IMG/VR virus record: IMGVR_UViG_3300046660_000304
Span: 1 to 50,304 of that record
Source of the DNA: a virus
DNA: 50,304 nt
Strand: one strand, 5' to 3'
Position numbers and translations under genes: made by a program
In this document: piece after piece, positions 8,304-24,359 of the stretch
Numbering within the stretch: position 1 is the first letter of the stretch
Layout of the letters: each line of letters opens with the position of its first letter
The notes under the pieces: model-generated
The model's database searches: none
The model's input: the letters and a program-made list of their open reading frames with translations, nothing else
What the model was told of the DNA's origin: nothing

Positions 8304-8666
8304 TCAGTAGAAAACTTTGAGATCGAAACCGTGGATGTTGCAGACTTCCTCGGCCAGGCTGCGGAAGGCGCCGCTGTGCGTGTTCGCGGTGCCGCGGCCG
8401 TCCATGCCGAGCTCCTCGAGGTGCAGATGGATCAGCTCGTGCGCCAGCTTCCGGACCAGGGTGTCGGTGTGTCCGATGGCGTTGGCCGAAGCGGTGATCG
8501 TGTGCTGCTTGCCGTTCCACTGGTAATGGGCGCAATGGGTCCGGAACCGGCCCACCTTGAACTTGACGTCTTCGCTCGGCGGCAGGTTCCAACTGGAGAA
8601 CGGTGGCGTGAGCGACAGGAAGTCGTAGGCGGCCGCCAGCATCTCGGGGGTGAGCGGGAGGGTCAC
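8304..8666 (-). CDS. SprT-like zinc metalloprotease (120 aa)
   Basis: The HExxH zinc motif is clear at residues 76-80 (LAHELIHLHLEELG), with a third ligand candidate at His97 in NTHSGAF. Proteins of the SprT/Spartan type degrade proteins crosslinked to DNA or act in stress responses. The GTG start overlaps the stop of the upstream small membrane gene (GTGA). Its place in the same operon as DNA polymerase suggests a replication-linked role. The usual C-terminal zinc ribbon of longer SprT proteins is absent. Confidence 0.75.
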   Translation of the reverse strand: MTLPLTPEMLAAAYDFLSLTPPFSSWNLPPSEDVKFKVGRFRTHCAHYQWNGKQHTITASANAIGHTDTLVRKLAHELIHLHLEELGMDGRGTANTHSGAFRSLAEEVCNIHGFDLKVFY

Positions 8667-8836
8667 CGCCAGAGGTCTCTCGTCGCGAACACCTGCCACG
8701 AGGTGAAACAGGTTTGCACCACGCTGTAAGTCGCGGACACCCACACGGTCCACAAGTCTGGAAAGTGCAAAAGCAGCCACGCCTGCAACAACACGACGGC
8801 CCACATGACGACCAATAACCCGACCAAAAGCTTCAC
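8663..8836 (-). CDS. Small membrane protein (57 aa)
   Basis: The GTG start overlaps the DNA polymerase stop (GTGA) and the stop overlaps the SprT-like start. The N-terminal 25 residues form a membrane segment; the rest is aromatic-rich with Trp and Phe. No family was recognised. The tight coupling on both sides supports it as a real gene. Confidence 0.6.
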   Translation of the reverse strand: MKLLVGLLVVMWAVVLLQAWLLLHFPDLWTVWVSATYSVVQTCFTSWQVFATRDLWR

Positions 8837-10863
8837 TTCTGATACCTCCGCGCCTTGAATCCGGACACAGCCAGTGGCAGGCCCTCGGCCCACTCCGGCA
8901 GCGTCGCCATCAGTTGCTTGAATTCGTCGAGGCTGCCGAAGTCCTCCGACGTCTCGCTGACCACTTCGTCGTGCACCGACAACACGACAGGATACCCTGC
9001 GTTCTCGACACGGACGATGGCCTCGGCTTCCACGTCGCGCGCGGTGCCCTGGACGGCGTTGTTGGCCAAGAGGCCGCCGTGCGCGAACTGGTCTGTCCAT
9101 TGGCGGGTGAACTGGTCGACGCCCTTGTAACAGATCGAGTCCTTCCAGACTGGCAACTGCTCGTAGACGGCGGGCGCGTCGTCGGTGGCCGGCAAAATCA
9201 TCTTGCCCTGCGTCGTCCAGGGCATCAGCTTGCGCTTCATGCAGGGGTAGGGGTAGCAAATCGCGCGGCCGCTCGGCAGACGCATGTAGAGAAACGAGCC
9301 CGCCTTGCGGAAGGCGATGCGGCCAGCGTGGTAGGTCGTGCCAGGGTTGGCGATCGCATCCTTGGCGGCCTGCTCGAGGTCGTACCACCACTGCACCACG
9401 TTCGGGTGCGCCTCGCGCCATGCGACCTTGAGCTCGTCGGCGCGCGCGTCCTCGACGATGACGCCATAGCCGACTGCCATCTTCTGGAAGGCGCCGACGC
9501 CCCCCTGGTAGCCGAGCGCGAGCTCCATCACCTTGCCGATTTGACGCTGGTCGTCCCCCACCGATTCCGGCTCGACGGAGAACGAGCGCGCGTAGGCCAG
9601 TTTGTAGATGTCATGGCCGACGCCGGCGTCGAAGTCGCGGAACGCCTGCAGCTTCCACTGCTCGTCGGCGAACCACGCGATCAATCGGCCTTCGATGTTA
9701 CTGAAGTCCGCGGCGTAAAGAGCGCATCCCGGAGCGGCCCCCACAAGTCCTCGGAGGACATCACTGACAACCGAGAGGGGATCGCCGTGGACGAGGGCGA
9801 CGAAATCGGCGGAACCGGTAGCAACGGCTTCGATATAGGCGGGGACGGCCTTTTTATTTTTTGGTCGACGGATGTTTTGCGGCTGGAATCTGCGCCCGCC
9901 CCAGCGGCCAGTGCTTGCGACATGAAATTGAAGAAGTCCGCGTGCACGGCTATCACGGCTGGCGCCGCTAACGAGCGCGTCGATTTTCTTGACGGCGGCG
10001 CCACCGCCTTCGGCCCGGATTTCGAGCACGCGCCGGACGTCTCTTGGGAGGTCGCATCCCAATAGATCGGCGACGTGGGCCTTGTCCAACGATTCCGTGG
10101 AAACCCCCTGCGCGGCAAGCCAGCTGACAAGCTGGTCGACGGCGGTGATTTTGGTGACGTCTCCATCCGTGATCTCCGCGAGTTCTTCGTTCAGCCACCT
10201 GGCCACATCGCTGACGACGGCCAGCGCACTCCGACAGAGTGACGTGTCTACGTAAATGCCGCGGTCGTTGATGACCTGATCCAGATGCCAGAGTGCCTGT
10301 TCGGACGTGCGCAGCGGCAATAGGTGCTGTTCGATCTTGCGCTCGACCACGACGTCGGTCTTGCAGTAGGCGTACAGCCGCTGCCGGCGCTCCTCGTCGT
10401 CCCACCACAACAGCTTGTCCGTCGGCTCGCCTTTGCGCGGCTTGCGTGGCTTGCTCATCCGCAGCATCAGCGAATGGCCTTCCTTGTCCTTCACGACGTC
10501 GAGGTGCAGCGCTGGCGCGCACTGCTCGAGTTTCCCTGGCAGGGCCATGGCGAGCGCCTGCACCATGACGCAGCGCCAGCTCTCCGCGCGCGGCGCCGGC
10601 CAGCCGTAGCGGGGCACAAGCACGCCGGCGGTCATCGCGCGCTCGAATGCGGCGTTCCAGGCGTGGACGGTTTCGGTGTGCTTGATGGCGTGTTTGATGT
10701 CGCGGTCGTCGAGATCCGGATGCCAGAGCTTCACCGGTTCGTTGTCGATCGCGTAGGCGGCGCACCAGACGTCGGTGCTCTCGTCCTCTGCATAGACGTA
10801 GGCGCCGGTCTTCTTCAGATCGACGGCGCTACGGCTTTCATAGTCGAGGTGGAGCGACGTCAC
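8833..10863 (-). CDS. Family A DNA polymerase (676 aa)
   Basis: This is the replicative polymerase of the phage. The N-terminal region carries a 3'-5' exonuclease-like signature (LDYES near residue 5, HAWNAAFE, then YCKTDVVVE). The polymerase domain has motif A with Asp386 in AADFSNIEGR, the O-helix motif B in RQIGKVMELALGYQGG, and motif C as His631-Asp632-Glu633 in SVHDEV. The length fits phage PolA enzymes without a 5' nuclease domain. GTG 10863 overlaps the methylase stop (GTGA). The operon also supplies ssDNA-binding protein, exonuclease and RecB-like nuclease; the primase-helicase is encoded elsewhere at 21-22.9 kb. Confidence 0.95.
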   Translation of the reverse strand: MTSLHLDYESRSAVDLKKTGAYVYAEDESTDVWCAAYAIDNEPVKLWHPDLDDRDIKHAIKHTETVHAWNAAFERAMTAGVLVPRYGWPAPRAESWRCVMVQALAMALPGKLEQCAPALHLDVVKDKEGHSLMLRMSKPRKPRKGEPTDKLLWWDDEERRQRLYAYCKTDVVVERKIEQHLLPLRTSEQALWHLDQVINDRGIYVDTSLCRSALAVVSDVARWLNEELAEITDGDVTKITAVDQLVSWLAAQGVSTESLDKAHVADLLGCDLPRDVRRVLEIRAEGGGAAVKKIDALVSGASRDSRARGLLQFHVASTGRWGGRRFQPQNIRRPKNKKAVPAYIEAVATGSADFVALVHGDPLSVVSDVLRGLVGAAPGCALYAADFSNIEGRLIAWFADEQWKLQAFRDFDAGVGHDIYKLAYARSFSVEPESVGDDQRQIGKVMELALGYQGGVGAFQKMAVGYGVIVEDARADELKVAWREAHPNVVQWWYDLEQAAKDAIANPGTTYHAGRIAFRKAGSFLYMRLPSGRAICYPYPCMKRKLMPWTTQGKMILPATDDAPAVYEQLPVWKDSICYKGVDQFTRQWTDQFAHGGLLANNAVQGTARDVEAEAIVRVENAGYPVVLSVHDEVVSETSEDFGSLDEFKQLMATLPEWAEGLPLAVSGFKARRYQK

Positions 10864-11342
10864 AGCTGCACCAGAGTGCCGGGCAACCCGCAAAAATCGA
10901 GCGCCATCACGTCGTACTCGCCATAAGCGACCAAACAGGAGGGCGCACCGGCATTAGCTGGCGCTTTGATTCCCGCGGCGTCGTGGAAGCAAAGACGTCC
11001 ATGAAGAAACAACACGGCGTCTGCGGCGTTCCAGACCGTCTCCACAAACCAAGCAGTCTCGGTTCGTGCAAAAATTAGCGCAGTCCCGCAGCCGTGCGCT
11101 GCCAGTTTACGCATCCACAGCACGGCGTCGCGGCTGTACGGAGGATTACACCAAACCCTACCTTCCCACGGCTGCACCAGTCCGTCGTCTTCTTTTGTGT
11201 AACGACGTTTCGCTGTAGTCCAAGGCATTACTGGCGGCGTGCAAGGGTCTAAGTCGAACGTCCCCAGCGACCGAATGATGTGGGGAGGCGTCAACCAAGT
11301 GTCAGTTTGGTTCACGGGGGACTCGTGGCCGCCGATGCTCAT
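10860..11342 (-). CDS. Phage N6-adenine DNA methyltransferase, Dam family (160 aa)
   Basis: The layout matches small phage Dam-type methylases: an N-terminal TDTWLTPPHII segment, FDLDPCTPP, then the catalytic NPPY motif in VWCNPPYSRD. It would transfer a methyl group from S-adenosylmethionine to adenine in DNA; the target sequence cannot be read from the protein. The start overlaps the stop of the GcrA-like gene (ATGA) and its stop overlaps the polymerase start. Since GcrA acts at methylated adenine sites in alphaproteobacteria, the pairing is notable. Confidence 0.9.
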   Translation of the reverse strand: MSIGGHESPVNQTDTWLTPPHIIRSLGTFDLDPCTPPVMPWTTAKRRYTKEDDGLVQPWEGRVWCNPPYSRDAVLWMRKLAAHGCGTALIFARTETAWFVETVWNAADAVLFLHGRLCFHDAAGIKAPANAGAPSCLVAYGEYDVMALDFCGLPGTLVQL

Positions 11343-11605
11343 TTGCGCTCCCGCACATATTCGTCCACTGGCACGATCTTTGATGGCGCCTCGGACGGCC
11401 GGCGCACCACGCTGTGCTCGACGCCGTGAATCATGTTCTCCAGCACGCCGACTTGCAGGCCGTAGCCATGGTGGCAGAGCTCGTGATGCTCCTCGCAATA
11501 GGAACTGCCGACGATCGCCGGCTCGCCACAGAACAGGAACGGCGTGTCGTCTGTCACACAGTAGCGGCACTCGTGCGAGCGGATGGTCAGAATGTCGCGA
11601 ATCAT
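11339..11605 (-). CDS. GcrA-like C-terminal domain protein (88 aa)
   Basis: The segment SHECRYC...FLFCGEP...GSSYCEEHHELC resembles the Cys/His-rich C-terminal part of the alphaproteobacterial cell-cycle regulator GcrA, which binds the sigma-70 holoenzyme. The N-terminal DNA-binding region of full GcrA is missing, so this protein may act only through RNA polymerase. The start was set at ATG 11605, just after a 17-base motif copy. It is followed by the Dam-type methylase with ATGA overlap. The family match is from memory of the motif pattern and is moderately sure. Confidence 0.65.
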   Translation of the reverse strand: MIRDILTIRSHECRYCVTDDTPFLFCGEPAIVGSSYCEEHHELCHHGYGLQVGVLENMIHGVEHSVVRRPSEAPSKIVPVDEYVRERK

Positions 11606-11617
11606 TGGCCCCTGCAA

Positions 11618-11634
11618 TCTCTCAGTTCGCAACA
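11618..11634 (-). promoter_or_regulatory. 17-base motif before the GcrA-like gene
   Basis: It reads TGTTG CGAAC TGAGAGA, one base off consensus, in the only sizeable gap (62 bases) between the GapR-like and GcrA-like genes. It is 12 bases upstream of the start codon. Confidence 0.6.
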
Positions 11635-11667
11635 CCGGCGGCGCAGAAACGCCGCCGGTGGTAGTTG

Positions 11668-11988
11668 TCAATCCAGGATGCCGAGGGCACTCATGTAGGT
11701 GTCCAGCACGGCCTCGGCGCTCTCGCGCTTCGCACGCTTGGACTCATCCTCCATCTGCCGCTTGACGATGGCCTTGATAGCAGCGGGCTCGAACCCGTTG
11801 CCCTTCGCCTCCTTGGCCAGCTCCTTTACATCCTGACGGATGTCGTCGGCTGCCTCGGCCAGGGTGGTGAAACGCTCGACGTAGCTCTTGAGCTGGCCGT
11901 TCGAATTGTGACCCGGCGCCGGCGGCTTGGCGGAGGTCACGGTGGCGTTGTGCTTCGCGGCCACCTCCGCGGCTGTCAGCGTCTTCAT
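11668..11988 (-). CDS. GapR-like DUF2312 nucleoid protein (106 aa)
   Basis: After a 30-residue linker, the protein shows the DUF2312 pattern: QLKSYVERFTTLAEAADDI, DVKELAKEAKGNGFE, AIKAIVKR, and a C-terminal DTYMSALG. GapR of Caulobacter belongs to this family and binds overtwisted DNA, helping replication and transcription. A phage copy could coat the phage DNA or affect the host nucleoid. ATG 11988 overlaps the exonuclease stop (ATGA). Confidence 0.85.
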   Translation of the reverse strand: MKTLTAAEVAAKHNATVTSAKPPAPGHNSNGQLKSYVERFTTLAEAADDIRQDVKELAKEAKGNGFEPAAIKAIVKRQMEDESKRAKRESAEAVLDTYMSALGILD

Positions 11989-12521
11989 GCTGCTTTGCTC
12001 CGTAGGGCGAGCGCCGCCGCAACACACCGAACCTGGTGCTTCGCGTCGTCGAGCGCGTTGTGGTAGGTGCCGGCGCGCTTGACGACGGCGGGGTTCATGT
12101 CGGCGATGTCGTAGACAGTTCGGGTGTCGCGGACGTTCCAGAACTTCCACGGCACCGGATTGTTGACGGCCAGTGCGGCAGCTTCCCAAAGGGCGGGATC
12201 GAAGTTCGCCCCTTGAGCCCACACCTTGCCCGTCAGACCCACGTTGGCGATGAACCAGCCGTGGAAGTCTGCGACGACCCACGGCAACGGCCGGGGATCG
12301 ACAAGCAAGGAATCGCGGGCCTCTTTGCTCTGGCGCGACCACCACTCGGCGGTGTTCGCGTCAACCGTCAGACCTGCGGTGTGACAGGTCTGCTGGTCGA
12401 TGTTGTAGTAGAGCTCCGGTCCCATGGTGCCGTCGAGTTCGAACACCACGGCGCCGATCGAACGCAACACGCTGCCGGGCTTGGTCCCGAACGTCTCAAG
12501 GTCGAGCATCACATGTTTCAT
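11985..12521 (-). CDS. DEDD-type 3'-5' exonuclease (178 aa)
   Basis: The first exonuclease motif is MLDLETFG with Asp7 and Glu9, followed by a conserved RSIGAVVFELDG strand, a middle Asp in QGANFDPALW, and a C-terminal HNALDDAKHQ box carrying the His/Asp pair of the DEDDh group. This layout matches the phage and bacterial Rv2179c-like exonuclease family. It likely degrades single strands during replication or recombination. It overlaps its neighbours by ATGA on both sides. Confidence 0.85.
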   Translation of the reverse strand: MKHVMLDLETFGTKPGSVLRSIGAVVFELDGTMGPELYYNIDQQTCHTAGLTVDANTAEWWSRQSKEARDSLLVDPRPLPWVVADFHGWFIANVGLTGKVWAQGANFDPALWEAAALAVNNPVPWKFWNVRDTRTVYDIADMNPAVVKRAGTYHNALDDAKHQVRCVAAALALRSKAA

Positions 12522-12775
12522 TTGCGTGCTTTCTTGGTGAGCAATCGGGCCAGTGCCAGGATGTGGTCCGCTTGTTCGTAAAGCGAGATCGCGGCGAGCC
12601 ACACCGTTGTGGCGTGCTCCCGGAGGGCGGCGTGGCCCTCCGGATCGGTCTCGAGTTCGATGGGCTTGACCGCGCTCACGACGTCGCCAAAGGCGTCGCG
12701 AGTTTCCTTCATGCCATCACCGAGCAGCAGCAAGTCGGAGAGCTGCGTCTTGAGGCGGTCGATGTCGTCTGACAT
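12518..12775 (-). CDS. Hypothetical helical protein (85 aa)
   Basis: An all-helical acidic protein without cysteines or membrane segments and no recognised family. The start is 8 bases after the ssDNA-binding protein gene and its stop overlaps the exonuclease start, so it is clearly an operon member. Confidence 0.65.
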   Translation of the reverse strand: MSDDIDRLKTQLSDLLLLGDGMKETRDAFGDVVSAVKPIELETDPEGHAALREHATTVWLAAISLYEQADHILALARLLTKKARK

Positions 12776-12783
12776 TGGCCGGC

Positions 12784-13398
12784 TCAGAAGATGTCGTCGG
12801 TCGAGGCGGGCTTGCCACCGGACGGCGCGGCACCAACGTCGGCGACGTCGAAGCCAGCGTTGGACGTGTTGCCGCCGGCCATGCCGAGACGTTCGTCGTG
12901 GTCAAGCAGCTGCACGCGGTTGAGATTCCAGCCGACACCGAGGCTGCCGGTCGTGTAGCCCCAAGCGGCGCCAGCGATCACGCACCAGCGGCCGCCATAG
13001 ACCTCTGACTTGTCGCCCTTGAACGGCTTGGCGTCCGGCCCGAACACCGCCGGCGGGAAGTCTTCGTTGGCGGACGGCTTGAGCGCGTAGGGGTACGCTT
13101 CGGCGAGTTCGGCCAGGCGAGGGAATTCCTCTGCGGTCTTGACGAGCGGACGGCGCAGCTTGAGTTCCTTCCACTTCTTGCCGTGGGTCTCTTCGGCGGC
13201 GCGGATGATCTCGTTCTTGATCTCCTCGATGTCAGCCGCGGCGGGGATCAGCGCCACGCAGCTGAACTTCGGCTTGCTGCCGGGCACCTTCGGATTCGGG
13301 ACGGCCGTGAAAAAGGCGGGGCGGAACACGAGCCGCACCTTCGGCGACATGATCTCGCCGGTCTCTTCGTTCTTCCAAGCTTTCAACAATTTCGACAT
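12784..13398 (-). CDS. Single-stranded DNA-binding protein, DUF2815 type (204 aa)
   Basis: The sequence follows the phage ssDNA-binding family related in role to T7 gp2.5: VRLVFRPAFFTAVPN near the N-terminus, KFSCVALIP, a long charged middle, SEVYGGRWCVIAGAAWGY, and GWNLNRVQLL. The tail is acidic and ends in DDIF, the kind of C-terminus such proteins use to contact replication partners. The ATG is only 2 bases after a 17-base motif copy. Confidence 0.85.
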   Translation of the reverse strand: MSKLLKAWKNEETGEIMSPKVRLVFRPAFFTAVPNPKVPGSKPKFSCVALIPAAADIEEIKNEIIRAAEETHGKKWKELKLRRPLVKTAEEFPRLAELAEAYPYALKPSANEDFPPAVFGPDAKPFKGDKSEVYGGRWCVIAGAAWGYTTGSLGVGWNLNRVQLLDHDERLGMAGGNTSNAGFDVADVGAAPSGGKPASTDDIF

Positions 13399-13400
13399 TT

Positions 13401-13417
13401 TCTCTCACTTTTCGACA
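13401..13417 (-). promoter_or_regulatory. 17-base motif abutting the ssDNA-binding gene
   Basis: It reads TGTCG AAAAG TGAGAGA in a 30-base gap. It ends 2 bases from the start codon, so a promoter at this site could not yield a normal leader. Confidence 0.65.
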
Positions 13418-13428
13418 AAAAGGACACG

Positions 13429-14607
13429 TTAAAGGTCGGTCGTGTCCGTTACCGATTGGTCTTCGAACCCATTGGCCGCCGTGGCGTCGATCGCGGGCCG
13501 CGGATCGCTCAGCGGCGCCAGCACGGTCCCGCTGGACTCTGCCTTGGCCAGATCCTTGAGCAGCGCCTTCTTCGCCTTCGGCAGCAGCTTCTCGACCACC
13601 GCTGGCGACTTCAGCTTCGGCGGCTCGTAGAGGTCATCGAGATCGGCGCCGGCGGCGACGAGCTCACGACCGGCGGCCTCCTCATCGACCCACTTGCGGA
13701 AGGCGCGCTTCGGCACGAGCTTGGCGCCTGGTGGCGGGTTGCCGGCGACTGCCTGTGCGTGCAGGAAGCCCTCGCGCCCCTTCAGCCACTGGCCGACCAG
13801 GTTCAACTCCGACTGCTCGATTTGCCAGTCCTGCAGCGGTTTCGCTTCCGGTTGCTCGAGACCCATGATCGCCTTCACCTTCTTTTCGAGCGCGCCGCAG
13901 AACCCGGCAGCTTTGCAAAACTTGCAGTGATCGCCGACAACCAGCGGCGCGTTCGGATCCTCGACGGCAACCGCCGCAGACTGCAGCGCGGCGACGTGTT
14001 CGTAGAGCTCAATGACGCCGGTGCTCCAGCGGCGCACCGGCCCACCAGGGTGCGGTGCGCGCGGCTGCACGATAATCAATTCCACCTCGCGGATGCCACG
14101 GTTGTGGTAGCGCTCGGCGACGCCCATGGCGTAGGTGAGGAGCTGTTCGTTCTCCTCGACCTCGACGGCGACGCCCTTGCCGTACTTGAGGTCCGCGATC
14201 GTGACTTTCTGCGTCGCCTCTTTGTAGGCGATGATGTCGCCGGTGCCGAACACGCCGGGCACCAGCGCCGTCATGTCCATCCGTTGCTCGCTCTCGAACT
14301 CGTCCGATTCAGCGCGCAACTCCTCGGCGACGTCGAGGTAGACCTGGACCGCCTCGACCATCTCCGGCGTCACGACGAACTTCTGCTCGCCGACGAAGAT
14401 CATCTCGCCGGCAAACCGTGACGCGGGGAAGGCACCCTTTATGCACATCTCGGCGAGCTCATGCGCGGCGGTGCCTTCTGCGGCGAACACGCTGCCAACG
14501 TCGACGATGCCGGATGACATCCGGATCGAGCCAGGGCAGGCCAGCCAACGGTGTGCGCTGGAGGGAGCGAGCGTAGCGTGGGCGCGGTCGGAGTGTTGTG
14601 GGGTCAC
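13429..14607 (-). CDS. DUF2800 protein, RecB/Cas4-like nuclease (392 aa)
   Basis: Typical features of DUF2800 phage proteins are present: an N-terminal SSAHRWLACPGS, a GTAAHELAE segment, then GTGDIIAYKE and IADLKYGKGV with the Asp and Asp-x-Lys expected of PD-(D/E)XK nucleases, and a C-terminal Cys cluster (HCKFCKAAGFC) like the iron-sulfur or zinc site of RecB-family enzymes. It probably works with the ssDNA-binding protein in recombination or replication. GTG 14607 overlaps the previous stop (GTGA). Confidence 0.85.
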   Translation of the reverse strand: MTPQHSDRAHATLAPSSAHRWLACPGSIRMSSGIVDVGSVFAAEGTAAHELAEMCIKGAFPASRFAGEMIFVGEQKFVVTPEMVEAVQVYLDVAEELRAESDEFESEQRMDMTALVPGVFGTGDIIAYKEATQKVTIADLKYGKGVAVEVEENEQLLTYAMGVAERYHNRGIREVELIIVQPRAPHPGGPVRRWSTGVIELYEHVAALQSAAVAVEDPNAPLVVGDHCKFCKAAGFCGALEKKVKAIMGLEQPEAKPLQDWQIEQSELNLVGQWLKGREGFLHAQAVAGNPPPGAKLVPKRAFRKWVDEEAAGRELVAAGADLDDLYEPPKLKSPAVVEKLLPKAKKALLKDLAKAESSGTVLAPLSDPRPAIDATAANGFEDQSVTDTTDL

Positions 14608-14843
14608 GCACGCCCCCTTGGCTCGTAGTGGCCCTGCACGCACATGTATCGCTCGATGGTGTAGGCGTCGTTCCGGTAGATCGGGTGCTGCGCCTTCCAT
14701 GCCGCGAGCGGCGCCTGGCCGCCCATGAGGCAGCCTTGGAATGTCAGACCGTCCGTCAACGTGGAGTCGGTGACGATCTCCTCCACGCAGACAGGTGTGG
14801 CGCCGATCATGTGGCAGACGAATGCGACGACGGTCACGAACAT
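14604..14843 (-). CDS. Small exported-like Cys protein (79 aa)
   Basis: A hydrophobic N-terminus (MFVTVVAFVCHMIGA) resembles a signal peptide or membrane anchor. Three further cysteines are spread through the remainder (VCVEE, FQGCLMGGQ, RYMCVQGHY). Proteins of this shape recur in alphaproteobacterial phages, with unknown function. The stop of the upstream gene directly precedes its ATG. Confidence 0.6.
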   Translation of the reverse strand: MFVTVVAFVCHMIGATPVCVEEIVTDSTLTDGLTFQGCLMGGQAPLAAWKAQHPIYRNDAYTIERYMCVQGHYEPRGRA

Positions 14844-15353
14844 CTACGCCTCCGCTGTGCCGTTGAGATACGCTTCCGACGCTTCCAGGAACTCTGCGAA
14901 CTGCTCCGGCTTGAGCTGCGGCGCCTTGGCGATGCCGAACGGGCCGTAGAGCTTCTGGATGTACGCGACCGTCTCAGGCATCGACATGCCGCGCTTGGTG
15001 CACGCCGCCGAGATCGCCTGCAGCCGCGGTTTGATGTCGCCGTCGAGCGTCAGTTCTTTCGCGGTTTCCGCCGGCGCGCCGCCGAGGTCGGAAATATCGT
15101 CGTTGAGTTCTTCGGTCTTGGTCTTTGGCTTGGGACCGCGCTTTTTCCCGGCGGTTGGCGCCGGCGCTTCGGCGAACTCTTCGACGATCTTATCGGCCGC
15201 AACCTGTTCAGCGACGGTCTCTTCGACCACGACAACTTCGGCCACTGGCTCGGCCGGCATCGCCGTCGATCCCTTGAGCATGATCGAAAGCGTCTTGATG
15301 CAGTTGAAGTACAGTTCTTCCGGCGTGTTGCCGGTGATCTCAAGCCGATGCAT
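14844..15353 (-). CDS. Hypothetical protein with AT-hook-like basic centre (169 aa)
   Basis: The first 30 residues look like a small alpha-beta unit, followed by an acidic Val/Glu/Ala stretch, a basic KKRGPKPKTK patch that resembles an AT-hook, and a helical C-terminal 80 residues. DNA binding is possible. The start overlaps the end of the winged-helix gene by 14 bases and has a 17-base motif copy upstream. Confidence 0.6.
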   Translation of the reverse strand: MHRLEITGNTPEELYFNCIKTLSIMLKGSTAMPAEPVAEVVVVEETVAEQVAADKIVEEFAEAPAPTAGKKRGPKPKTKTEELNDDISDLGGAPAETAKELTLDGDIKPRLQAISAACTKRGMSMPETVAYIQKLYGPFGIAKAPQLKPEQFAEFLEASEAYLNGTAEA

Positions 15354-15717
15354 GTGCGGTCTCCCTTCTCTCAGTTTGCGACATTTCAGGCAAGATGGTG
15401 AGGCGATAGCCACGCCCCCACGTGTTCTCGACGTCCAGCCCTATGGGCCGGATCTTGTTCCGCAACTGCGTCACGGATACTTTGATGTTGGTGTCGGCGT
15501 AATCGGGCTCGTCGGCGCCCCACATCTGCTGCGTGATCGTGGCGTGGGAGACGGTCTCCGGCATCCGACGTGCGAGCGCAAACGCCAGGTCGGTCAGGCG
15601 CGACGTGAGGCGGATGGAGTGTTCGCGAAACCGCAACCGGTTCTCTTCCAGGCTGACAACGACCGTGGACGACATCGTGGTCGCTTGGCCGCAACACGGG
15701 CACTTATTCTCAGTCAC
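15340..15717 (-). CDS. PhoB/OmpR-type winged-helix regulator with Cys knuckle (125 aa)
   Basis: Residues 30-105 match the effector domain of OmpR/PhoB response regulators: LTSRLTDLAFALARRM, then a recognition helix region KVSVTQLRNKIRP and the wing NTWGRGYRLT. There is no receiver domain; instead the N-terminus has CPCCG, a possible metal knuckle. It is therefore a phosphorylation-independent DNA binder, probably a phage transcription regulator. The start is GTG 15717, 9 bases after a doubled 17-base motif. Confidence 0.85.
   Translation of the reverse strand: MTENKCPCCGQATTMSSTVVVSLEENRLRFREHSIRLTSRLTDLAFALARRMPETVSHATITQQMWGADEPDYADTNIKVSVTQLRNKIRPIGLDVENTWGRGYRLTILPEMSQTERRETAHASA
15367..15383 (-). 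promoter_or_regulatory. 17-base motif inside the winged-helix gene
   Basis: It reads TGTCG CAAAC TGAGAGA with TTGCCT at 15388-15393, 17 bases before a GAGAAG hexamer. It lies in the 3' end of the winged-helix gene, 13 bases before the start of the next gene. Confidence 0.6.
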
Positions 15718-15726
15718 TTGATTCTC

Positions 15727-15743
15727 CCTCTCTGTTCCGTTTC
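15727..15743 (-). promoter_or_regulatory. Degenerate 17-base motif, tandem copy
   Basis: It reads GAAAC GGAAC AGAGAGG, matching only the two right-hand blocks. It abuts the better copy at 15742-15758, giving a tandem pair before the winged-helix gene. Confidence 0.35.
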
Positions 15744-15758
15744 TCTCACTTCTCTACA
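15742..15758 (-). promoter_or_regulatory. 17-base motif / promoter candidate before the winged-helix gene
   Basis: An exact copy (TGTAG AGAAG TGAGAGA) with TTGACG at 15763-15768 spaced 17 bases from GAGAAA. It occupies the 52-base gap between the 93-aa gene and the winged-helix gene. Confidence 0.65.
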
Positions 15759-15769
15759 CGCGCGTCAAG

Positions 15770-16051
15770 TCAACCCAGCAACAAATTCTTGTATTCCCGC
15801 AGCGTCGGCGATAGTTCTTCGGCGGCGATCTTTTTCGACACCTCGACGATCCAGTGCGCGGTGCATGCTTCAGCCAGGGTCATCATCTCAGGCAGCGTCA
15901 TCGAGTTAATCGGCCGCATCGTGTTGACGGACTGCTTCAGGTGCGCGGCCATCGCCCACGCGCAGCTCTCGCGCAGCGCGTCCACCCATTGATCGTCGGG
16001 GTTCGGTGGCCGCGGACGCGTCTCCGGCGCCGGCTTCTCAGGTTTCGGCAT
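15770..16051 (-). CDS. Hypothetical protein (93 aa)
   Basis: A Pro-rich N-terminal 20 residues is followed by helices with Met- and Ala-rich faces. No family was recognised. The start overlaps the upstream gene by 14 bases, and the next gene has its own motif-marked start. Confidence 0.55.
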   Translation of the reverse strand: MPKPEKPAPETRPRPPNPDDQWVDALRESCAWAMAAHLKQSVNTMRPINSMTLPEMMTLAEACTAHWIVEVSKKIAAEELSPTLREYKNLLLG

Positions 16052-16295
16052 GAGGGTCTTGTGGTGGTTTCACAGGATCGTGGAAGAGGCGCATCTCAAC
16101 GTCCTCAAATTCTTCCGCATCCACCACGTCTGACGGGTCGATAATCAGCTCTGCGAGGTCATTGAATTCATCATCGTCGGCCTCGTCCTCGACCAACTTC
16201 TGATAACGCTCGAACGTCTCGCGGCTGATGGTCCTGATCTGGTCGTAGGACACTTCTTGCCGGGCCGTGATCCTAACCGTGACTGTATCGCTCAT
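16038..16295 (-). CDS. Hypothetical acidic protein (85 aa)
   Basis: A short beta-rich N-terminus (DTVTVRITARQEVSYDQI) precedes a strongly acidic helix with many Asp and Glu. The start overlaps the previous stop by one base (TGATG). Acidic early phage proteins often act as inhibitors or DNA mimics, but nothing here proves it. Confidence 0.55.
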   Translation of the reverse strand: MSDTVTVRITARQEVSYDQIRTISRETFERYQKLVEDEADDDEFNDLAELIIDPSDVVDAEEFEDVEMRLFHDPVKPPQDPHAET

Positions 16296-16759
16296 CAAAC
16301 TTCTCCTGAATGGTGTTGCGAAGGAAGCTCTGAACCCATCCCGCAGACGCCGCAGCGATCCTGGCCGGGCCAATGATTGCAGCGGGGAGGCTCTTCCTTC
16401 ATGTATCGGATACGCTCGGCGCACTCGTCGCATGCGTCCTGCATGATTTTGTATTGGCTGGTTGCCAACAGCGCCTTGTGAATGTCCTTGACGTAAAGTT
16501 CACCAGCCCAATCGCCTAACTGGTCACAAACCTTCGCGCACTCTTCGATGATGGCGTCTCGGTCCTTCTTTGCAGAACCCAATCCGTTGATCAGGTTTGC
16601 GAGATGAGCGTCCTTCGTCATGAACGCCTGTATTACAGAGGACAGCGTGAGCGCGGTGATCTGGGGCGGGACATCCGTCTCTCCGGATTCGAAGCGCTTG
16701 GCGAGCGTCTCAAGGCGGGACAGCTCGACCAAAATTGAAGTCTCTTGCGTGACGGTCAT
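16295..16759 (-). CDS. Hypothetical protein with C-terminal Cys cluster (154 aa)
   Basis: The protein is helical. The C-terminal third carries CDEC, CNHW and CGVCG, enough for one or two zinc sites. ATG 16759 overlaps the stop of the upstream 63-aa gene (ATGA). No family was recognised. Confidence 0.6.
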   Translation of the reverse strand: MTVTQETSILVELSRLETLAKRFESGETDVPPQITALTLSSVIQAFMTKDAHLANLINGLGSAKKDRDAIIEECAKVCDQLGDWAGELYVKDIHKALLATSQYKIMQDACDECAERIRYMKEEPPRCNHWPGQDRCGVCGMGSELPSQHHSGEV

Positions 16760-16947
16760 TTTCCGATCCTGCCTCGATAAGGCTCTGTAGTGGTCCAATG
16801 GGCGGCCAACTGTTCCGCAGCCGATGGTTTCAATCCCGCTCGCCTTGTCATCAGCTCGACAAGATCCGCCTTCCCCAACTGCCGGCGCGCTCCGAACCTG
16901 TAGAGCGCGCCAAGCCTGATTTCCTGGACCGCCTTACGCTGCGGCAC
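16756..16947 (-). CDS. Hypothetical small basic protein (63 aa)
   Basis: GTG 16947 is the most likely start (a TTG at 16965 is possible); both overlap the end of the first operon gene. The central LGKADLVELMTRRAGLKPSAAEQLAAHW looks like two helices of a small helical domain with DNA-binding character, but no family is assigned. Confidence 0.5.
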   Translation of the reverse strand: MPQRKAVQEIRLGALYRFGARRQLGKADLVELMTRRAGLKPSAAEQLAAHWTTTEPYRGRIGK

Positions 16948-17095
16948 ACTCGTCTCCCGCCTCAATCCAGTCCAAAATCATGTCGCGGAGCTGTTCGTCC
17001 GAGGCGGCTTCGATCACGGCCAGGTCGAACTTGCATTCGAAGATCGCCGCGATTTCGAGTTCTGCCCGGCTGGTGTTCTGGTCGATGATGGTCAT
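16934..17095 (-). CDS. First gene of the leftward early operon (53 aa)
   Basis: A small acidic helical protein that begins after GGGAGACGG and lies immediately downstream of a near-consensus sigma-70 promoter. It was not recognised as any family. Being the first product of the operon, it may have an immediate early function. Confidence 0.6.
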   Translation of the reverse strand: MTIIDQNTSRAELEIAAIFECKFDLAVIEAASDEQLRDMILDWIEAGDECAAA

Positions 17096-17117
17096 GTCCG
17101 TCTCCCGTGATCTGATA

Positions 17118-17146
17118 TTGCGTTTATAAGCGATATTGGATATGAT
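17118..17146 (+). promoter_or_regulatory. Rightward promoter of the RHH gene
   Basis: TTGCGT at 17118-17123 and TATGAT at 17141-17146 are 17 bases apart. The spacer contains one half-operator (ATAAGCGATATT) and a palindromic operator lies just downstream of the expected start site, so the promoter looks self-repressed. Confidence 0.75.
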
Positions 17147-17151
17147 GTCAA
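17123..17151 (-). promoter_or_regulatory. Leftward early promoter
   Basis: On the minus strand, TTGACA (17146-17151) and TATAAA (17123-17128) are spaced exactly 17 bases, close to sigma-70 consensus and the best promoter in the window. It overlaps the rightward promoter almost entirely and drives the 8.1-17.1 kb operon. Confidence 0.85.
17126..17137. promoter_or_regulatory. Operator half-site O1
   Basis: ATAAGCGATATT repeats the left arm of the palindrome at 17153-17166. It sits between the -35 and -10 of both promoters, where bound protein would block polymerase. Confidence 0.6.
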
Positions 17152-17152
17152 T

Positions 17153-17166
17153 AAGCGATATCGCTT
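17153..17166. promoter_or_regulatory. Palindromic operator O2
   Basis: AAGCGATATCGCTT is a perfect 14-base palindrome, 26 bases from the copy in O1 as measured between arm starts. It ends 15 bases before the RHH start codon. Ribbon-helix-helix dimers commonly bind such short palindromes in tandem. Confidence 0.7.
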
Positions 17167-17180
17167 TTAGGGAGATAATT

Positions 17181-17354
17181 TTGAAAAAAGTTGAGACCAG
17201 GGGCCGTCCCGATATGAACGTCAAGCCAACCGTGATCCGACTCCCGGCCGGGATGCCGGAGCGCATTGACGCCATTGCCGGGCCAAATAAGAGGGCCGAG
17301 TTCATTCGGGAAGCCGTTGAGAAGGAGTTGAAGCGACGGGAGCGGAAGGGGTAG
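17181..17354 (+). CDS. Ribbon-helix-helix DNA-binding regulator (57 aa)
   Basis: The strand KPTVIRLP followed by helices MPERIDAIAG and KRAEFIREAVEKELKRRE is the Arc/CopG type fold. The TTG start at 17181 is preceded by GGAG at a 6-base spacing and is preferred to ATG 17214, which has no clear ribosome site. The gene reads away from the leftward early operon, and its promoter region carries repeated operator-like sequences. It is probably the repressor of both divergent promoters. Its 3' end overlaps the convergent gene by 53 bases. Confidence 0.8.
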   Translation: MKKVETRGRPDMNVKPTVIRLPAGMPERIDAIAGPNKRAEFIREAVEKELKRRERKG

Positions 17355-17979
17355 GGCCGCGATGCTCTGGGCGCGAGAGCGCGAGTGATTCCAGCGCCGT
17401 TCGGATGTCGCCGCGAACGACACTTGCCTGAAAGCACATCCCGGCCACGTCAGAACCCACAATCGCGGCCCAAGCGCGCTCAACGTCTGCATCAGTCACT
17501 TGGACTGCCTGCGGTTCATTGCGAGTGAGGAAAAGCACATCATCAGCAGCCAAAAGATACTCGGCTTGGTGTGTCTCTTCTTCCCATTCCATGTGGTGCT
17601 CTGGCGCGAACTTATGCCAAAGGTTGATGGCAATGCGCTCCCGTAGGAGGCCGTCAGCCACACTGCCGGCAGAGAAGGGCGAGACCGGCCGGCGCAGACA
17701 CTCGCCATTGAGCAGCTTCACGAACTCGTCGCCGTGCGAACCTTGTTGAATGGCGTATTCGAATGGCTCATCATTGACCTTGAGCCAGTGGACTTGATCC
17801 CCCTTCTTGTTCTCGACCGGAGCGGCCGGCGGCTGGGCGGCGAGTGCGGCATCGATCTGAGCTAGAAGTCGATCAGCCCACGGCACATCGGTATCCGGCT
17901 CGATGTATTCCCGAGCCGCTATAAGCGCATCCCGCATCCCGCATCCTTGGGCATCATTGAAAGTGTGGTCCTTGGTCAT
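17302..17979 (-). CDS. Hypothetical protein (225 aa)
   Basis: An Ala-rich helical N-terminal part (DALIAAREYIEP, WADRLLAQIDAALAA) leads to a mixed domain with Trp and His, and a Pro-rich tail. It is the last gene of the second minus-strand operon and its ATG overlaps the XF1762-type stop (ATGA). No family or function was recognised. Confidence 0.6.
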   Translation of the reverse strand: MTKDHTFNDAQGCGMRDALIAAREYIEPDTDVPWADRLLAQIDAALAAQPPAAPVENKKGDQVHWLKVNDEPFEYAIQQGSHGDEFVKLLNGECLRRPVSPFSAGSVADGLLRERIAINLWHKFAPEHHMEWEEETHQAEYLLAADDVLFLTRNEPQAVQVTDADVERAWAAIVGSDVAGMCFQASVVRGDIRTALESLALSRPEHRGPTPSAPVASTPSQRLPE

Positions 17980-18449
17980 GCTGCAAGCCTCCTCAGCCAG
18001 CGGCGCTTTGGTTCGGGGCGTTCGGCAGGTTTGCGGGCGCGGGAAGGGCGGTCCCATTCGCCGCCGTCGGTGAGACCCATATCGATGAAGCCAGCGCCGA
18101 CGAGCGTCTTGCCGCTTTCGTGGGGCAAGGTGTAGGTCCAAGCCTCAAGGTATCCGAGAGCTTTTGCAGCTCGGCAGAGTGAACCGTAGAGCATCGTGCA
18201 TGCCGGGGCGGCATGGTTGCCGACGCCAGGAAGTCCCTCTTTGGCTGCTACGCGCGTAATGACGCCGCGCCCCGTATTCTGCCAAACTCGCGAGGGGTTG
18301 CCGAACACTGCAACCGCGCAGCATTCCCCATCGGGGCCGATTATTTGCGCCGCGAACAACCCGCCTTGAAGTTTCTTTAGATGGCGATGCCACGCGGCCA
18401 CCTGCTTCGTGGCAGCCTTAATTGTGCATGGCGCGACGCGATAGGTCAC
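17976..18449 (-). CDS. XF1762-family protein, acetyltransferase-like (157 aa)
   Basis: The sequence fits the XF1762 family found in phages and prophages: an N-terminal AAWHRHLKKLQGG, then AVAVFGNPSR, a central ITRVAAK, PACTMLYGSLCRAAKALGY, TYTLPHESGKTLVGAGF, and a C-terminal WDRPSRARK. The fold is thought to be related to GNAT acyltransferases; the substrate is unknown and a link to DNA modification is only speculative. The start is GTG 18449, overlapping the upstream stop. Confidence 0.8.
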   Translation of the reverse strand: MTYRVAPCTIKAATKQVAAWHRHLKKLQGGLFAAQIIGPDGECCAVAVFGNPSRVWQNTGRGVITRVAAKEGLPGVGNHAAPACTMLYGSLCRAAKALGYLEAWTYTLPHESGKTLVGAGFIDMGLTDGGEWDRPSRARKPAERPEPKRRWLRRLAA

Positions 18450-18607
18450 TTCGCGCCCCTTTCATCTCTCAAATATTCGGCGACGGCTTCTTCCCATCGG
18501 CGAGTAGCCCTAACGGGCTCGATAAAATGCCCGTAGGGCTCCAAAGCCGTTCGCTTTGTGCATCCGGGTATCGTGGCGGGCGCATCCGATGCCGGTTTCT
18601 CGATCAT
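18446..18607 (-). CDS. Hypothetical small protein (53 aa)
   Basis: A short protein ending in a helical, charged tail (WEEAVAEYLRDERG). ATG 18607 overlaps the previous stop (ATGA), and its stop overlaps the next start. No family was recognised. Confidence 0.5.
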   Translation of the reverse strand: MIEKPASDAPATIPGCTKRTALEPYGHFIEPVRATRRWEEAVAEYLRDERGAK

Positions 18608-18807
18608 CGGTCGCCCTCCGCTTCGTAAATCATGCCGCCGGCACCGTTGCAGGCCTTGCAAGTCAGGACTTGGGCGCACGGCGGGTCGATAGACCAACTG
18701 CTCACACCTTCCCAGACCTCGATTCCGCCTTCGCCGCCGCACTCGGGACAGTCAAGCCAGGCCTCCGGCACACTTTCACTCCCAGCGGAAGAACGGGGAT
18801 CTAGCAT
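18604..18807 (-). CDS. DnaJ-type zinc-finger small protein (67 aa)
   Basis: Two CxxCxGxG-like units (CPECGGEGG and CKACNGAGG) form a single zinc finger of the DnaJ central type. There is no J domain. The start at 18807 overlaps the end of the membrane micro-protein gene. Probably a small zinc-binding adaptor; the partner is unknown. Confidence 0.65.
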   Translation of the reverse strand: MLDPRSSAGSESVPEAWLDCPECGGEGGIEVWEGVSSWSIDPPCAQVLTCKACNGAGGMIYEAEGDR

Positions 18808-18932
18808 TTGATTCTCACATTCTTGAGGATCCAACCCAGTGCGAGCAGGCCGAGCACGATGGGCACGCCGGCGAACACCCAACTCATGACGGGTATGATG
18901 TACGGTGCGGCCGCGGGGATACTGAAGTTCAT
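18801..18932 (-). CDS. Membrane micro-protein (43 aa)
   Basis: Residues 8-36 are strongly hydrophobic (one membrane helix), with a short basic C-terminus. It overlaps the RuvC-like stop (ATGA) and the start of the zinc-finger gene, so the operon architecture supports it. Function unknown. Confidence 0.55.
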   Translation of the reverse strand: MNFSIPAAAPYIIPVMSWVFAGVPIVLGLLALGWILKNVRIKC

Positions 18933-19384
18933 GCGACACCTCCCGTCTTCAGGACCAGGATGGCGATCGCATCGGCCTCGTTGTCATCGCAGGGGTCGTA
19001 GCCGCGTCGGCGCGCCTCGGCGATCATCTCGTCCTTGCTCGCCTTCCCATTTCCCGTCCAGAATTCTTTGATTTCGCCGACCGGCACGGATTGATATTCG
19101 ACACGGTTGTCGACGCACCACGCTTGCAGGACCGCTAAGAATCCACCGTAGACGTGCGCTGCGGTCGTGCCGAGATGCCGGCGCACTTCTTCAAAGTAGA
19201 TCATCTTTACGCCGCTATCCCGCCGCATGATGTCGAGCTGTTCGCGGAACCGGATGAAGCGCATGCCAACGCTTTCGATCCGCTTGTTAACCGAAAAGTC
19301 CCATGTGCCGCTGATGCAGACACCGGTGGGGTGTAGCAGCGCGAAGCCGGTGCTGGTACCGAGGTCGAGGGCCAGTGTGCTCAC
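18929..19384 (-). CDS. RuvC-like Holliday-junction resolvase (151 aa)
   Basis: RNase H-fold motifs of phage RuvC-type nucleases are visible: Asp7 in LALDLGTSTGFAL, Glu65/66 in IYFEEV, and Asp134 and Asp138 in the C-terminal CDDNEADAIAIL. It likely cuts branched DNA before packaging. The start is GTG 19384, overlapping the previous stop (GTGA). Confidence 0.88.
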   Translation of the reverse strand: MSTLALDLGTSTGFALLHPTGVCISGTWDFSVNKRIESVGMRFIRFREQLDIMRRDSGVKMIYFEEVRRHLGTTAAHVYGGFLAVLQAWCVDNRVEYQSVPVGEIKEFWTGNGKASKDEMIAEARRRGYDPCDDNEADAIAILVLKTGGVA

Positions 19385-20034
19385 GTCAGCGGCTCCGTGC
19401 GTTGCGGGACCAACTTCAGGCTGCTCGGATACCAGCCGCCGCGCGGATAGTTGGTGGTGTCCACCAGCACGAACTGATTATCGAAGCCGACAACAGTGCC
19501 GCGCTGTCCGTCGTACACCTTAACCATGTCCCCAACGGTGAAGCCGTGGCGGGACTCACGCTGGACGACAGGATTGGATTTTTGCGCGCCGAGCGCAGTC
19601 CGGCAGATCGCCTCGCTCATGCTCTCGCCTGGCTTCTGCTTCACCGCGATGTAGCCGCCGGCGGCCGGAATCACTGGCGAGCCACCTTCGGTCTTGGCGC
19701 CGCGCGGCAAAGGCAACCCGTGCGCCTTCTCCAGTTCTTCCTGCAGCAGCGCCAGCGCGCGCCAGGCCAGAGCTCCGCTCTCGCGCACATCGCCGTCGAA
19801 CTGGCCATGCCGCGTCAGGTGACGCGCACAACAATCGGCGTGATCCATCGACTTGCCACGGGCATGATGCAGCGGCTCGCCTGGATTGTGCTTCTCGTTG
19901 CCCTGGTGCGACACCCACGCCACATAGGCGAGCGCGTCGGGGAAGTAGGCCAGTAGGCCGCTGAACATCGGATAGGTCTTGCGCGTGGCGCTGTCGGCGA
20001 CGAGCAGCCGGTCGCGTTGCGTTGTTTCGGTCAT
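19381..20034 (-). CDS. dATP/dGTP diphosphohydrolase-like protein with SH3-like tail (217 aa)
   Basis: The N-terminal 110 residues follow the pattern of the phage dATP/dGTP diphosphohydrolase N-terminal family (YPMFSGLLAYFPDALAYVAW, then HADCCARHLTRHGQFD and ALAWRALALLQEELE). The C-terminal 50 residues (FTVGDMVKVYDGQRGTVVGF...GGWYPSSLKLV) look like a small beta-barrel of KOW/SH3 type. It may adjust the dNTP pool during replication. The catalytic activity is inferred from the family name only. Confidence 0.65.
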   Translation of the reverse strand: MTETTQRDRLLVADSATRKTYPMFSGLLAYFPDALAYVAWVSHQGNEKHNPGEPLHHARGKSMDHADCCARHLTRHGQFDGDVRESGALAWRALALLQEELEKAHGLPLPRGAKTEGGSPVIPAAGGYIAVKQKPGESMSEAICRTALGAQKSNPVVQRESRHGFTVGDMVKVYDGQRGTVVGFDNQFVLVDTTNYPRGGWYPSSLKLVPQRTEPLT

Positions 20035-20038
20035 AGTG

Positions 20039-20251
20039 TCAATCCTGCTGATCGTGGATGGTGTGAGCGCAGGTCGACACGCGCGACCAATAGCTGCGTA
20101 TAAACAAACGGAGGGCGATAGGGTCGACACGCGACAGCCCCATGTGCCGCTCCATCAACGACGCCAGCATCGCAGCCGCGTCTTTTGCGTCTTGCTCAGA
20201 GATGCGACGCTGGCCTTGCGACTGCCCGCCGTGATAGCCGGTACCGTTCAT
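20039..20251 (-). CDS. Hypothetical protein (70 aa)
   Basis: A Gly/Gln-rich start is followed by two predicted helices (EQDAKDAAAMLASLMERHMG and DPIALRLFIRSYWSRV). The ATG overlaps the upstream stop (ATGA). No family was recognised. Confidence 0.55.
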   Translation of the reverse strand: MNGTGYHGGQSQGQRRISEQDAKDAAAMLASLMERHMGLSRVDPIALRLFIRSYWSRVSTCAHTIHDQQD

Positions 20252-20418
20252 AGTCCTTCCCCCGTGCTCAATCCTTGCGACAGGCACAGCTCGCACGCGG
20301 TGCCGATGAAATAGGGCGGCCGTTCGTAGTCGTCCGCCCATGGCGCGATGTGCAGCCAGAAGCCGAACCACCGAAACCAGCCAGCGGCGTGCGCGGCGCG
20401 CTCGCATTGTTGCGACAT
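20248..20418 (-). CDS. Hypothetical Trp/Cys protein, first gene of its operon (56 aa)
   Basis: A compact aromatic protein (GWFRWFGFWLHIAPW, then ERPPYFIGTACELC) with three cysteines in all. It begins 6 bases after a 17-base motif copy that heads the 17.3-20.4 kb minus-strand operon. No family was recognised. Confidence 0.55.
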   Translation of the reverse strand: MSQQCERAAHAAGWFRWFGFWLHIAPWADDYERPPYFIGTACELCLSQGLSTGEGL

Positions 20419-20424
20419 CTCGAA

Positions 20425-20441
20425 TCCCTCACTTCCCTACA
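20425..20441 (-). promoter_or_regulatory. 17-base motif heading the minus-strand operon
   Basis: It reads TGTAG GGAAG TGAGGGA, one base off consensus. Upstream on the same strand TTGACA (20469-20474) stands 17 bases from CATGTT (20446-20451), so here the motif would fall at the transcription start. Confidence 0.6.
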
Positions 20442-20473
20442 GCGGAACATGCGTCGGGTTCGATTGACTGTCA

Positions 20474-20490
20474 AGCGTAAAAGTGAGAGA
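20474..20490 (+). promoter_or_regulatory. Partial 17-base motif, rightward copy 1
   Basis: It reads AGCGT AAAAG TGAGAGA: the right-hand blocks are exact, the left block is not. It faces the deoxyribosyltransferase-like gene. Confidence 0.45.
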
Positions 20491-20499
20491 TATGCAATC

Positions 20500-20516
20500 T
20501 CTACAAACCAGAGAGG
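20500..20516 (+). promoter_or_regulatory. Partial 17-base motif, rightward copy 2
   Basis: It reads TCTAC AAACC AGAGAGG, a weak match 26 bases after copy 1 and 10 bases before the start codon at 20527. Confidence 0.35.
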
Positions 20517-20526
20517 GATTCTGACC

Positions 20527-20916
20527 ATGAAGATTTATTTGGCTGCGCCATTCGCCGACCGCGGCAAGATGGAGACCATCGCCAACTACTTGAAGGTCAA
20601 GGGGCACGAGATCACGGCCAGTTGGGTCTATGGTGGCGAGGACGGGCTTGACCGTCGGCAGATCGCGCTGCTCGACCTGGATGACGTCGACAAGGCCGAC
20701 GTCGTGATTTCCTTCACTTTCCCACGCGGAACGCCATCAACTGGCGGCGGCCGGCACGTCGAGTTCGGGTATGCGCTCGCCAAGGGGAAGCGCGTCGTCG
20801 TCATCGGCGAGCGGGAGAACGTGTTCCACCATCACCCGTCGGTGAAGCTGCACGCGTCCGTCGATGATTGGCTGCGAGATACCGCATATGAGGAAGCATT
20901 GGCGATTCTAGACTAG
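20527..20916 (+). CDS. Nucleoside 2-deoxyribosyltransferase-like protein (129 aa)
   Basis: The N-terminus MKIYLAAPFADR, the central ALLDLDDVDKADVVISF and the GGRHVEFGYALAKGKRVVVIG segment match the small nucleoside deoxyribosyltransferase family, with a candidate catalytic Glu in HVEFGYAL. Such enzymes exchange bases on deoxynucleosides and scavenge precursors. It is the first gene rightward from a divergent regulatory region. Confidence 0.82.
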   Translation: MKIYLAAPFADRGKMETIANYLKVKGHEITASWVYGGEDGLDRRQIALLDLDDVDKADVVISFTFPRGTPSTGGGRHVEFGYALAKGKRVVVIGERENVFHHHPSVKLHASVDDWLRDTAYEEALAILD

Positions 20917-20944
20917 CCCTTGTGTCTTCCGCTCGCGCTCAGTT

Positions 20945-20961
20945 TGTAGGAAACTGAGAGT
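20945..20961 (+). promoter_or_regulatory. 17-base motif before the primase-helicase gene
   Basis: It reads TGTAG GAAAC TGAGAGT, 21 bases before the ATG at 20983 and 28 bases after the previous stop. No TTG hexamer is in the -35 position here. Confidence 0.6.
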
Positions 20962-20982
20962 TCGCCATTTTGAGGGGCCTAC

Positions 20983-22878: not shown

Positions 22879-22917
22879 TGTCACTAGTTCAAAGTCAATG
22901 AATGTCACCAAATGTCC
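22795..22917 (+). repeat. TGTCA direct repeats, possible iterons
   Basis: TGTCA preceded by A/T-rich bases occurs near 22796, 22805, 22821, 22860, 22869, 22879 and 22903, and AATGTCC follows at 22911. The best copies are AATGTCA at 22858, 22867, 22877 and 22901, mostly 9-10 bases or a multiple apart. The array straddles the end of the primase-helicase gene and the following gap. Spaced short repeats beside a replication initiator recall iterons of an origin. Confidence 0.45.
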
Positions 22918-22934
22918 CCCCCTTATAGGGGGAC
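22914..22934. other. Hairpin GTCCCCC / GGGGGAC
   Basis: Seven-base arms enclose a 7-base loop, directly after the repeat array and 34 bases before the next start codon. There is no T-tract, so it is not a usual terminator; it may shape the leader of the next gene or the origin. Confidence 0.5.
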
Positions 22935-22968
22935 AAGTGACAATCGACCGATGTTGAGGAAAACAGGA

Positions 22969-23502: not shown

Positions 23503-23511
23503 GTACGGTGC

Positions 23512-23649: not shown

Positions 23650-23654
23650 AAAGC

Positions 23655-23695: not shown

Positions 23696-23704
23696 GTTTG
23701 AAAG

Positions 23705-24060: not shown

Positions 24061-24130
24061 GGTGTGTCCGTTCTGTGTCCGGTTGTATGCCTGAGGAATT
24101 CACGTGTCTATAGAGAAACTTAACCTAGGT

Positions 24131-24358: not shown

Positions 24359-24359
24359 A

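Follow-up and report, generated by a model that had tools for sequence, protein, structure and literature searches.

A small ribbon-helix-helix gene with paired operators between divergent promoters as a probable autorepressing accessory cassette in a phage contig

The divergent promoter region at positions 17118-17166 probably belongs to a self-contained, autorepressing accessory regulatory cassette inserted in a leftward operon. The cassette would consist of a ribbon-helix-helix (RHH) gene read rightward, a "cargo" gene read leftward, two divergent promoters and two operators. The window, i.e., the whole stretch of DNA that was analysed, comprises one entire IMG/VR contig record (50,304 bases, 61.8% GC). 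More than 100 related cassettes, mostly from phages and genomes of Alphaproteobacteria, have unrelated neighbours; thus, the cassette looks like an interchangeable add-on control unit. The elements of the locus are as follows.

17118..17146, + strand: rightward promoter for the RHH gene, TTGCGT-17-TATGAT (-35 box at 17118-17123, -10 box at 17141-17146)
17123..17151, - strand: leftward promoter, TTGACA-17-TATAAA (-35 box at 17151-17146, -10 box at 17128-17123)
17126..17143, no strand assigned: predicted operator O1, ATAAGCGATATTGGATAT, lying in the two promoter spacers and in contact with both -10 boxes (PWM score 26.4)
17151..17168, no strand assigned: predicted operator O2, ATAAGCGATATCGCTTTT, over the predicted transcription start of the RHH gene (PWM score 31.3)
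17181..17354, + strand: 57-aa RHH (CopG/Arc-like) gene of a conserved RHH family, TTG start, predicted autorepressor
16934..17095, - strand: first leftward gene, 53 aa, the putative cargo of the cassette, with its ATG at 17095, about 30 nt from O1, and a GGGAG ribosome site

The initial annotation described a near-perfect leftward promoter and a rightward promoter on the same bases, and the hexamers and spacers were confirmed in the sequence. Both promoters are of the sigma-70 type, and their 17-nt spacers overlap within a shared stretch at 17118-17151. The leftward promoter agrees with the consensus at 11 of 12 positions; the rightward one is weaker and poor by consensus. A simple promoter scan of the window listed neither of them and found no significant promoter. 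Both escaped the scanner through its requirements for the -10 box and for the total number of matches, and its outcome was not counted as evidence against either promoter. Rfam and tRNA scans found nothing, and a DNA search of phage records with positions 12000-26000 of the window returned no match.

The same annotation placed AAGCGATAT once between the hexamers and once downstream, as a 14-base palindrome. Both elements are present, but the first copy, at 17128-17136, is only half of O1, an 18-bp imperfect palindrome that overlaps both -10 boxes. The perfect 14-base palindrome AAGCGATATCGCTT, at 17153-17166, is part of O2, which also abuts the leftward -35 box. The two predicted sites are 18 bp each, with centres 25 bp apart. 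Allowing one mismatch, the 9-mer AAGCGATAT was found five times in the window against 5.7 expected, which is chance level; the significance of the locus thus lies in the paired 18-bp operators and not in the count of the 9-mer. When all 50,304 bases were searched for such pairs, O1/O2 was the only one, and no pair occurred in 13 related phage segments without the RHH gene. In the near-identical contig 3300046507_000433 (L249), O1 differs by one base (T to C at 17137), giving ATAAGCGATATCGGATAT. A wider regulon in the window was considered and rejected, the next-best site having a PWM score of 10.1 and 20 Markov shuffles reaching up to 15.7.

That the rightward product is a 57-aa RHH protein, as first proposed, was borne out by its open reading frame and by the family profile. 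The TTG start at 17181 is preceded by a fitting AGGGAG ribosome site, and the family has a GRP motif, a beta-strand and two helices. The family profile A2 matched the CopG-family structures 6iya and 7by2 at an E-value of about 2e-4; the window protein alone matched Pfam RHH_1 at an E-value of 0.046, with a score that falls short of the cut-off. In the single-chain AlphaFold2 model of the 57-aa protein, helices span residues 25-33 and 38-56 (mean pLDDT 71.5) and the beta-strand is not visible; a Foldseek search with this model gave no match, an outcome to be expected with a chain of this length. Taken together, the profile homology and the predicted helices place the protein in the RHH superfamily (MetJ/Arc/CopG), and it is the only RHH protein in the window. 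An extended start at ATG 17145, which would give 69 aa, was discarded, since transcription is predicted to begin downstream of it. The TTG codon and its ribosome site are kept in L003/L090 and L108, and TTG starts recur in L012-L036; perhaps these recurring TTG starts keep translation of the repressor low.

Viral contigs were searched with the window RHH protein, and its relatives were found to carry the same sites upstream. Searched with the operator pattern alone, 2.9 million viral contigs yielded 26 loci; in about 21 of them, an RHH relative lies directly beside the site. The family alignment, in turn, recovered 130 viral matches (80 kept) and 49 in bacterial genomes, the latter nearly all from Alphaproteobacteria. 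An operator pair was present upstream in 40 of 49 non-redundant relatives; neither Markov shuffles nor other parts of these loci gave any. The remaining nine relatives lacked a pair under the rule applied. This comparative evidence ties the operators to the RHH family. It also bears on the notion that this AT-rich patch of promoters and repeats arose by chance in a GC-rich genome, with which the empty promoter scan and the chance-level count of the 9-mer would agree. Conservation of the pair in relatives and its uniqueness in the window refute this notion, to which we assign a negligible probability.

The sites in relatives follow the template ATANNNGNNNNCNNNTAT with a lineage-specific core (GATATC, GGTACC, GATAAC, GTCCCC, GATTGC, GGTGCC and others), and the commonest inter-site spacing is that of the window, 25 bp (29 of 78 loci). 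Operator distance tracks the distance between RHH beta-strands when the helices are allowed for (partial r 0.34; Mantel 0/2000). It also tracks the helices (partial r 0.29); since these carry signal too, relatedness is not fully removed and was controlled only roughly in the co-variation test. A leftward TTGAC -35 box was found in 30 of 42 representatives against a background of 5.4%, and a strong leftward promoter match in 55% of relatives against 9% in the null. At the threshold used, the figures for the rightward promoter were modest (17% against 6%). Many loci have the leftward start codon at a distance of about 27-34 nt from O1. Additional operators in relatives numbered 12, with 4.7 expected, and two of the 12 belong to a second cassette. 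Two cassettes with different operators are present in L108 (GGTACC and GTGTACATG types) and in L126 (ATACC/CATCG and GTGCC types); second RHH genes are also present in L136. The literature searched, which comprised open-licence papers, contained no description of this family, which is weak evidence of novelty; the family is widespread and apparently undescribed so far.

The leftward genes vary from locus to locus. The 53-aa protein of the window matched no PHROG at an E-value of 0.001 and no Pfam family above the cut-off, and its homologue was found only in the near-identical contig. Across loci, 78 leftward neighbours fell into 57 unrelated clusters, with matches to HNH nucleases, methyltransferases, ribonucleotide reductase and HTH proteins, and mostly with no known function; PHROG and Pfam scans of these genes revealed no common function. 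In genomes of sphingomonads (Sphingobium, Sphingomonas, Novosphingobium) and of Rhizobiaceae/Brucella, the leftward proteins next to the cassette belong to two small host-group-specific families (loci L045, L046, L049, L054 and L060, L063, L067, L069, L072). The first of these families has an RR-containing N-terminus resembling a secretion signal.

Thus, at the level of sequence, the comparison shows a conserved layout, the association of the operators with the family, the co-variation of operator and beta-strand and the interchangeability of the leftward genes, as well as absence from phages with the same gene module and duplicate cassettes with different operators. In the proposed mechanism, RHH dimers would bind O1 and O2. 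At O1, the protein would block both promoters because this site lies between the hexamers of each. Binding at O2 would cover the RHH start and abut the leftward -35 box and, together with O1, would shut both promoters. In a newly entered cell that lacks RHH protein, the leftward promoter, the stronger of the two, would fire at once; as the protein accumulated, both promoters would be turned down. The net result would be an early leftward pulse followed by a low steady level of both products. Control is suggested to be strictly local, given that no more operators were found in the window and few beyond chance in relatives. By read-through, the cassette may also extend its transcription to genes of replication behind it, those for SSB and pol A. 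The surrounding genes are listed below.

8304..16947, - strand: leftward run downstream of the cassette, with small genes followed by DUF2800, SSB and pol A
8833-10635, - strand: pol A
12784-13398, - strand: Gp2.5-like SSB
13429-14700, - strand: DUF2800 nuclease-like gene
17302..20407, - strand: leftward genes converging on the RHH gene
20983-22878, + strand: Prim-Pol/AAA primase-helicase, on the far side beyond the RHH gene

The genes of the 8304-16947 run are possible read-through targets of the leftward promoter, and the run may be co-transcribed, judging from its close same-strand packing only. The genes at 17302-20407 and at 8304-17095 appear to be one ancestral leftward operon interrupted by the cassette. 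In L260 and L250, the RuvC-like gene, DUF2800, SSB and polA all run in one direction, and there is neither an RHH gene nor an operator pair. Within the converging genes of the window, the leftward gene at 17976-18449 matched a PHROG of Mom-like DNA modification proteins (E-value 7.6e-12). A divergent gap at 20408-20526 separates the leftward operon (20407) from the rightward gene before the primase-helicase. It contains TTGACTGTCAA, a leftward TTGACA and an 11-nt inverted repeat (20424-20434 / 20481-20491), and is a candidate for the main early promoter region.

The locus was originally read as the likely lysis-lysogeny switch of the phage. The RHH protein, the divergent overlapping promoters and operators placed to affect both of them stand, but the switch role itself is mostly unsupported. 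Under this reading, the RHH protein would be an immunity switch that keeps the leftward replication operon repressed in the lysogen; the diversity of operators would reflect heteroimmunity. The operators do overlap the leftward promoter, pol A, SSB and DUF2800 do lie leftward, the operators diversify with the protein between lineages in the manner of immunity specificities, and several relatives have an integrase near the RHH gene. For this phage, a switch role is conceivable because the leftward transcript could run into the replication genes; if it reached pol A, SSB and DUF2800, the RHH protein could matter for replication. Contrary to the first claim, however, not every replication gene is in the leftward operon, because the primase-helicase is rightward and outside the leftward run. 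In relatives, moreover, the leftward neighbours are mutually unrelated and mostly not replication genes.

Phages that share the module of XRE repressor, integrase, polA, SSB and DUF2800 (L250, L251/L252 and L260) also argue against the switch. Their XRE repressor and integrase are 35-39% identical to those of the window and their polA 44-52%, yet both the RHH gene and the operator pair are absent from them, and their leftward genes continue without interruption. The RHH gene is also absent from L170, and in L162 it lies elsewhere, between the integrase and the distal end of the polA operon, away from its head. A place at the head of the replication operon is therefore not conserved among same-module phages, and only one near-identical contig, L249, has the arrangement of the window. 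The replication genes and XRE repressor of L249 are 99-100% identical to those of the window, the integrase 90% and gene 8304 71%; the two contigs are mosaic around the integrase end.

Of the 28 RHH-bearing phage records, 24 have an integrase and 18 a Cro/CI-type HTH_3 protein, in at least seven cases as an adjacent divergent pair. The remaining 10 had no HTH_3 match; hence, the RHH protein could be the only repressor found in some of them. StopSmel, a Mu-like phage with an RHH gene, has its own c repressor and Ner, and the window has a separate XRE repressor beside the integrase, so the RHH protein does not stand as a main repressor without a separate CI- or c-type protein. The distance of this XRE-integrase pair from the locus had been given as 11 kb, which is right (about 9-11 kb). 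The presence of two different cassettes in one phage likewise speaks against a single immunity switch. We therefore regard the switch as unlikely and would not treat the site as the lysogeny switch of this phage. The choice of lysogeny more likely falls to the separate XRE repressor beside the integrase than to the RHH protein, the role of the former being our inference. Nested inverted repeats (CTCTGCT...AGCAGAG around GTCGGA...TCCGAC) at 5950-6069, just upstream of the XRE gene at 6070, are a possible XRE operator.

Several known systems resemble the autorepressing cassette in part. Arc and Mnt of P22 (immI) are phage RHH repressors acting at overlapping divergent promoters. The window locus shares the RHH fold and this promoter arrangement with them, and a small protein with an operator between the hexamers would suit Arc/Mnt-style control of an antirepressor gene or another gene of secondary immunity, on the model of P22 immI. 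Weak similarity to "Arc-like repressor" PHROGs (E-values of 0.08-0.2 for the window protein and 0.0025 for the best in the family) points the same way. The Arc/Mnt-style architecture initially assigned to the locus was not upheld, however: the window has a single RHH gene and not an Arc/Mnt pair, and the first leftward genes include no antirepressor family. Additionally, the leftward genes across loci are unrelated, and the cassette is dispensable in same-module phages. We consider regulation of the immI kind quite improbable.

Many antitoxins are RHH autorepressors, RelB being an example (PMC2812701), and a type II toxin-antitoxin system, with the RHH protein as antitoxin and the divergent gene as toxin, was considered for this reason. 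The RHH gene of the window is, however, a single gene followed by a convergent one and not part of an operon with a toxin, and its 57-aa product ends after the second helix, without a C-terminal toxin-binding tail. The divergent genes are mutually unrelated, with no toxin family among the matches listed. Without an operon partner or a C-terminal tail, an antitoxin was rejected as scarcely credible. Plasmid autorepressors of the CopG type are very short RHH proteins, each binding to a palindrome that overlies its own promoter, and the profile match to 6iya and 7by2 is in keeping with them; unlike these, the cassettes have two or three operators with lineage-specific cores, between divergent genes in phages. 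The CI/Cro switch shares divergent promoters with common operators, but the window locus lacks a Cro-like partner, and CI/Cro pairs are separate in many phages with RHH cassettes.

In its logic, the cassette resembles the anti-CRISPR-associated (Aca) autorepressors of phages. In these systems, a small phage repressor acts on its own promoter and on that of a linked, interchangeable accessory gene, turning both down so that an early pulse results, and ten helix-turn-helix Aca families are described (PMC9410906). As far as can be read from DNA, the likeness lies in an RHH autorepressor linked to a varying accessory gene through a shared operator. By profile, the cassette repressor is instead a ribbon-helix-helix protein and belongs to none of these described helix-turn-helix Aca families (PMC9410906); its genes are divergent rather than in one operon, and none of the linked genes is known to be an anti-CRISPR. 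We tentatively propose, as a possibility, that these loci form a widespread "Aca-like" class of RHH cassettes in alphaproteobacterial phages and mobile elements, with orthogonal operators and a leftward pool of counter-defence or other host-takeover genes that can be found via the operator pair. With an operator specificity of its own for each cassette, several could work side by side. If the reading as an accessory cassette is right, the paired operators and RHH gene would be a DNA-readable handle by which hidden accessory genes of alphaproteobacterial phages could be traced, in the way that Aca genes pointed to anti-CRISPRs. The family also offers a natural series of RHH repressors whose operator cores are many, with two sometimes in a single phage, so that the RHH recognition code and the way orthogonal repressors evolve could be put to a direct test.

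Two further features were observed elsewhere in the window. Between the primase-helicase and the gene at 22969, positions 22903-22942 contain an extended inverted repeat, TGTCAC-CAAA-TGTCCCCC-loop-GGGGGACA-A-GTGACA. The adjacent proteins encoded at 27741-29945 and 30003-31568 have a similar start (MSQPPxYxxxxSF...LIQRDDG) and are probably the products of duplicated tail-fibre-like genes.
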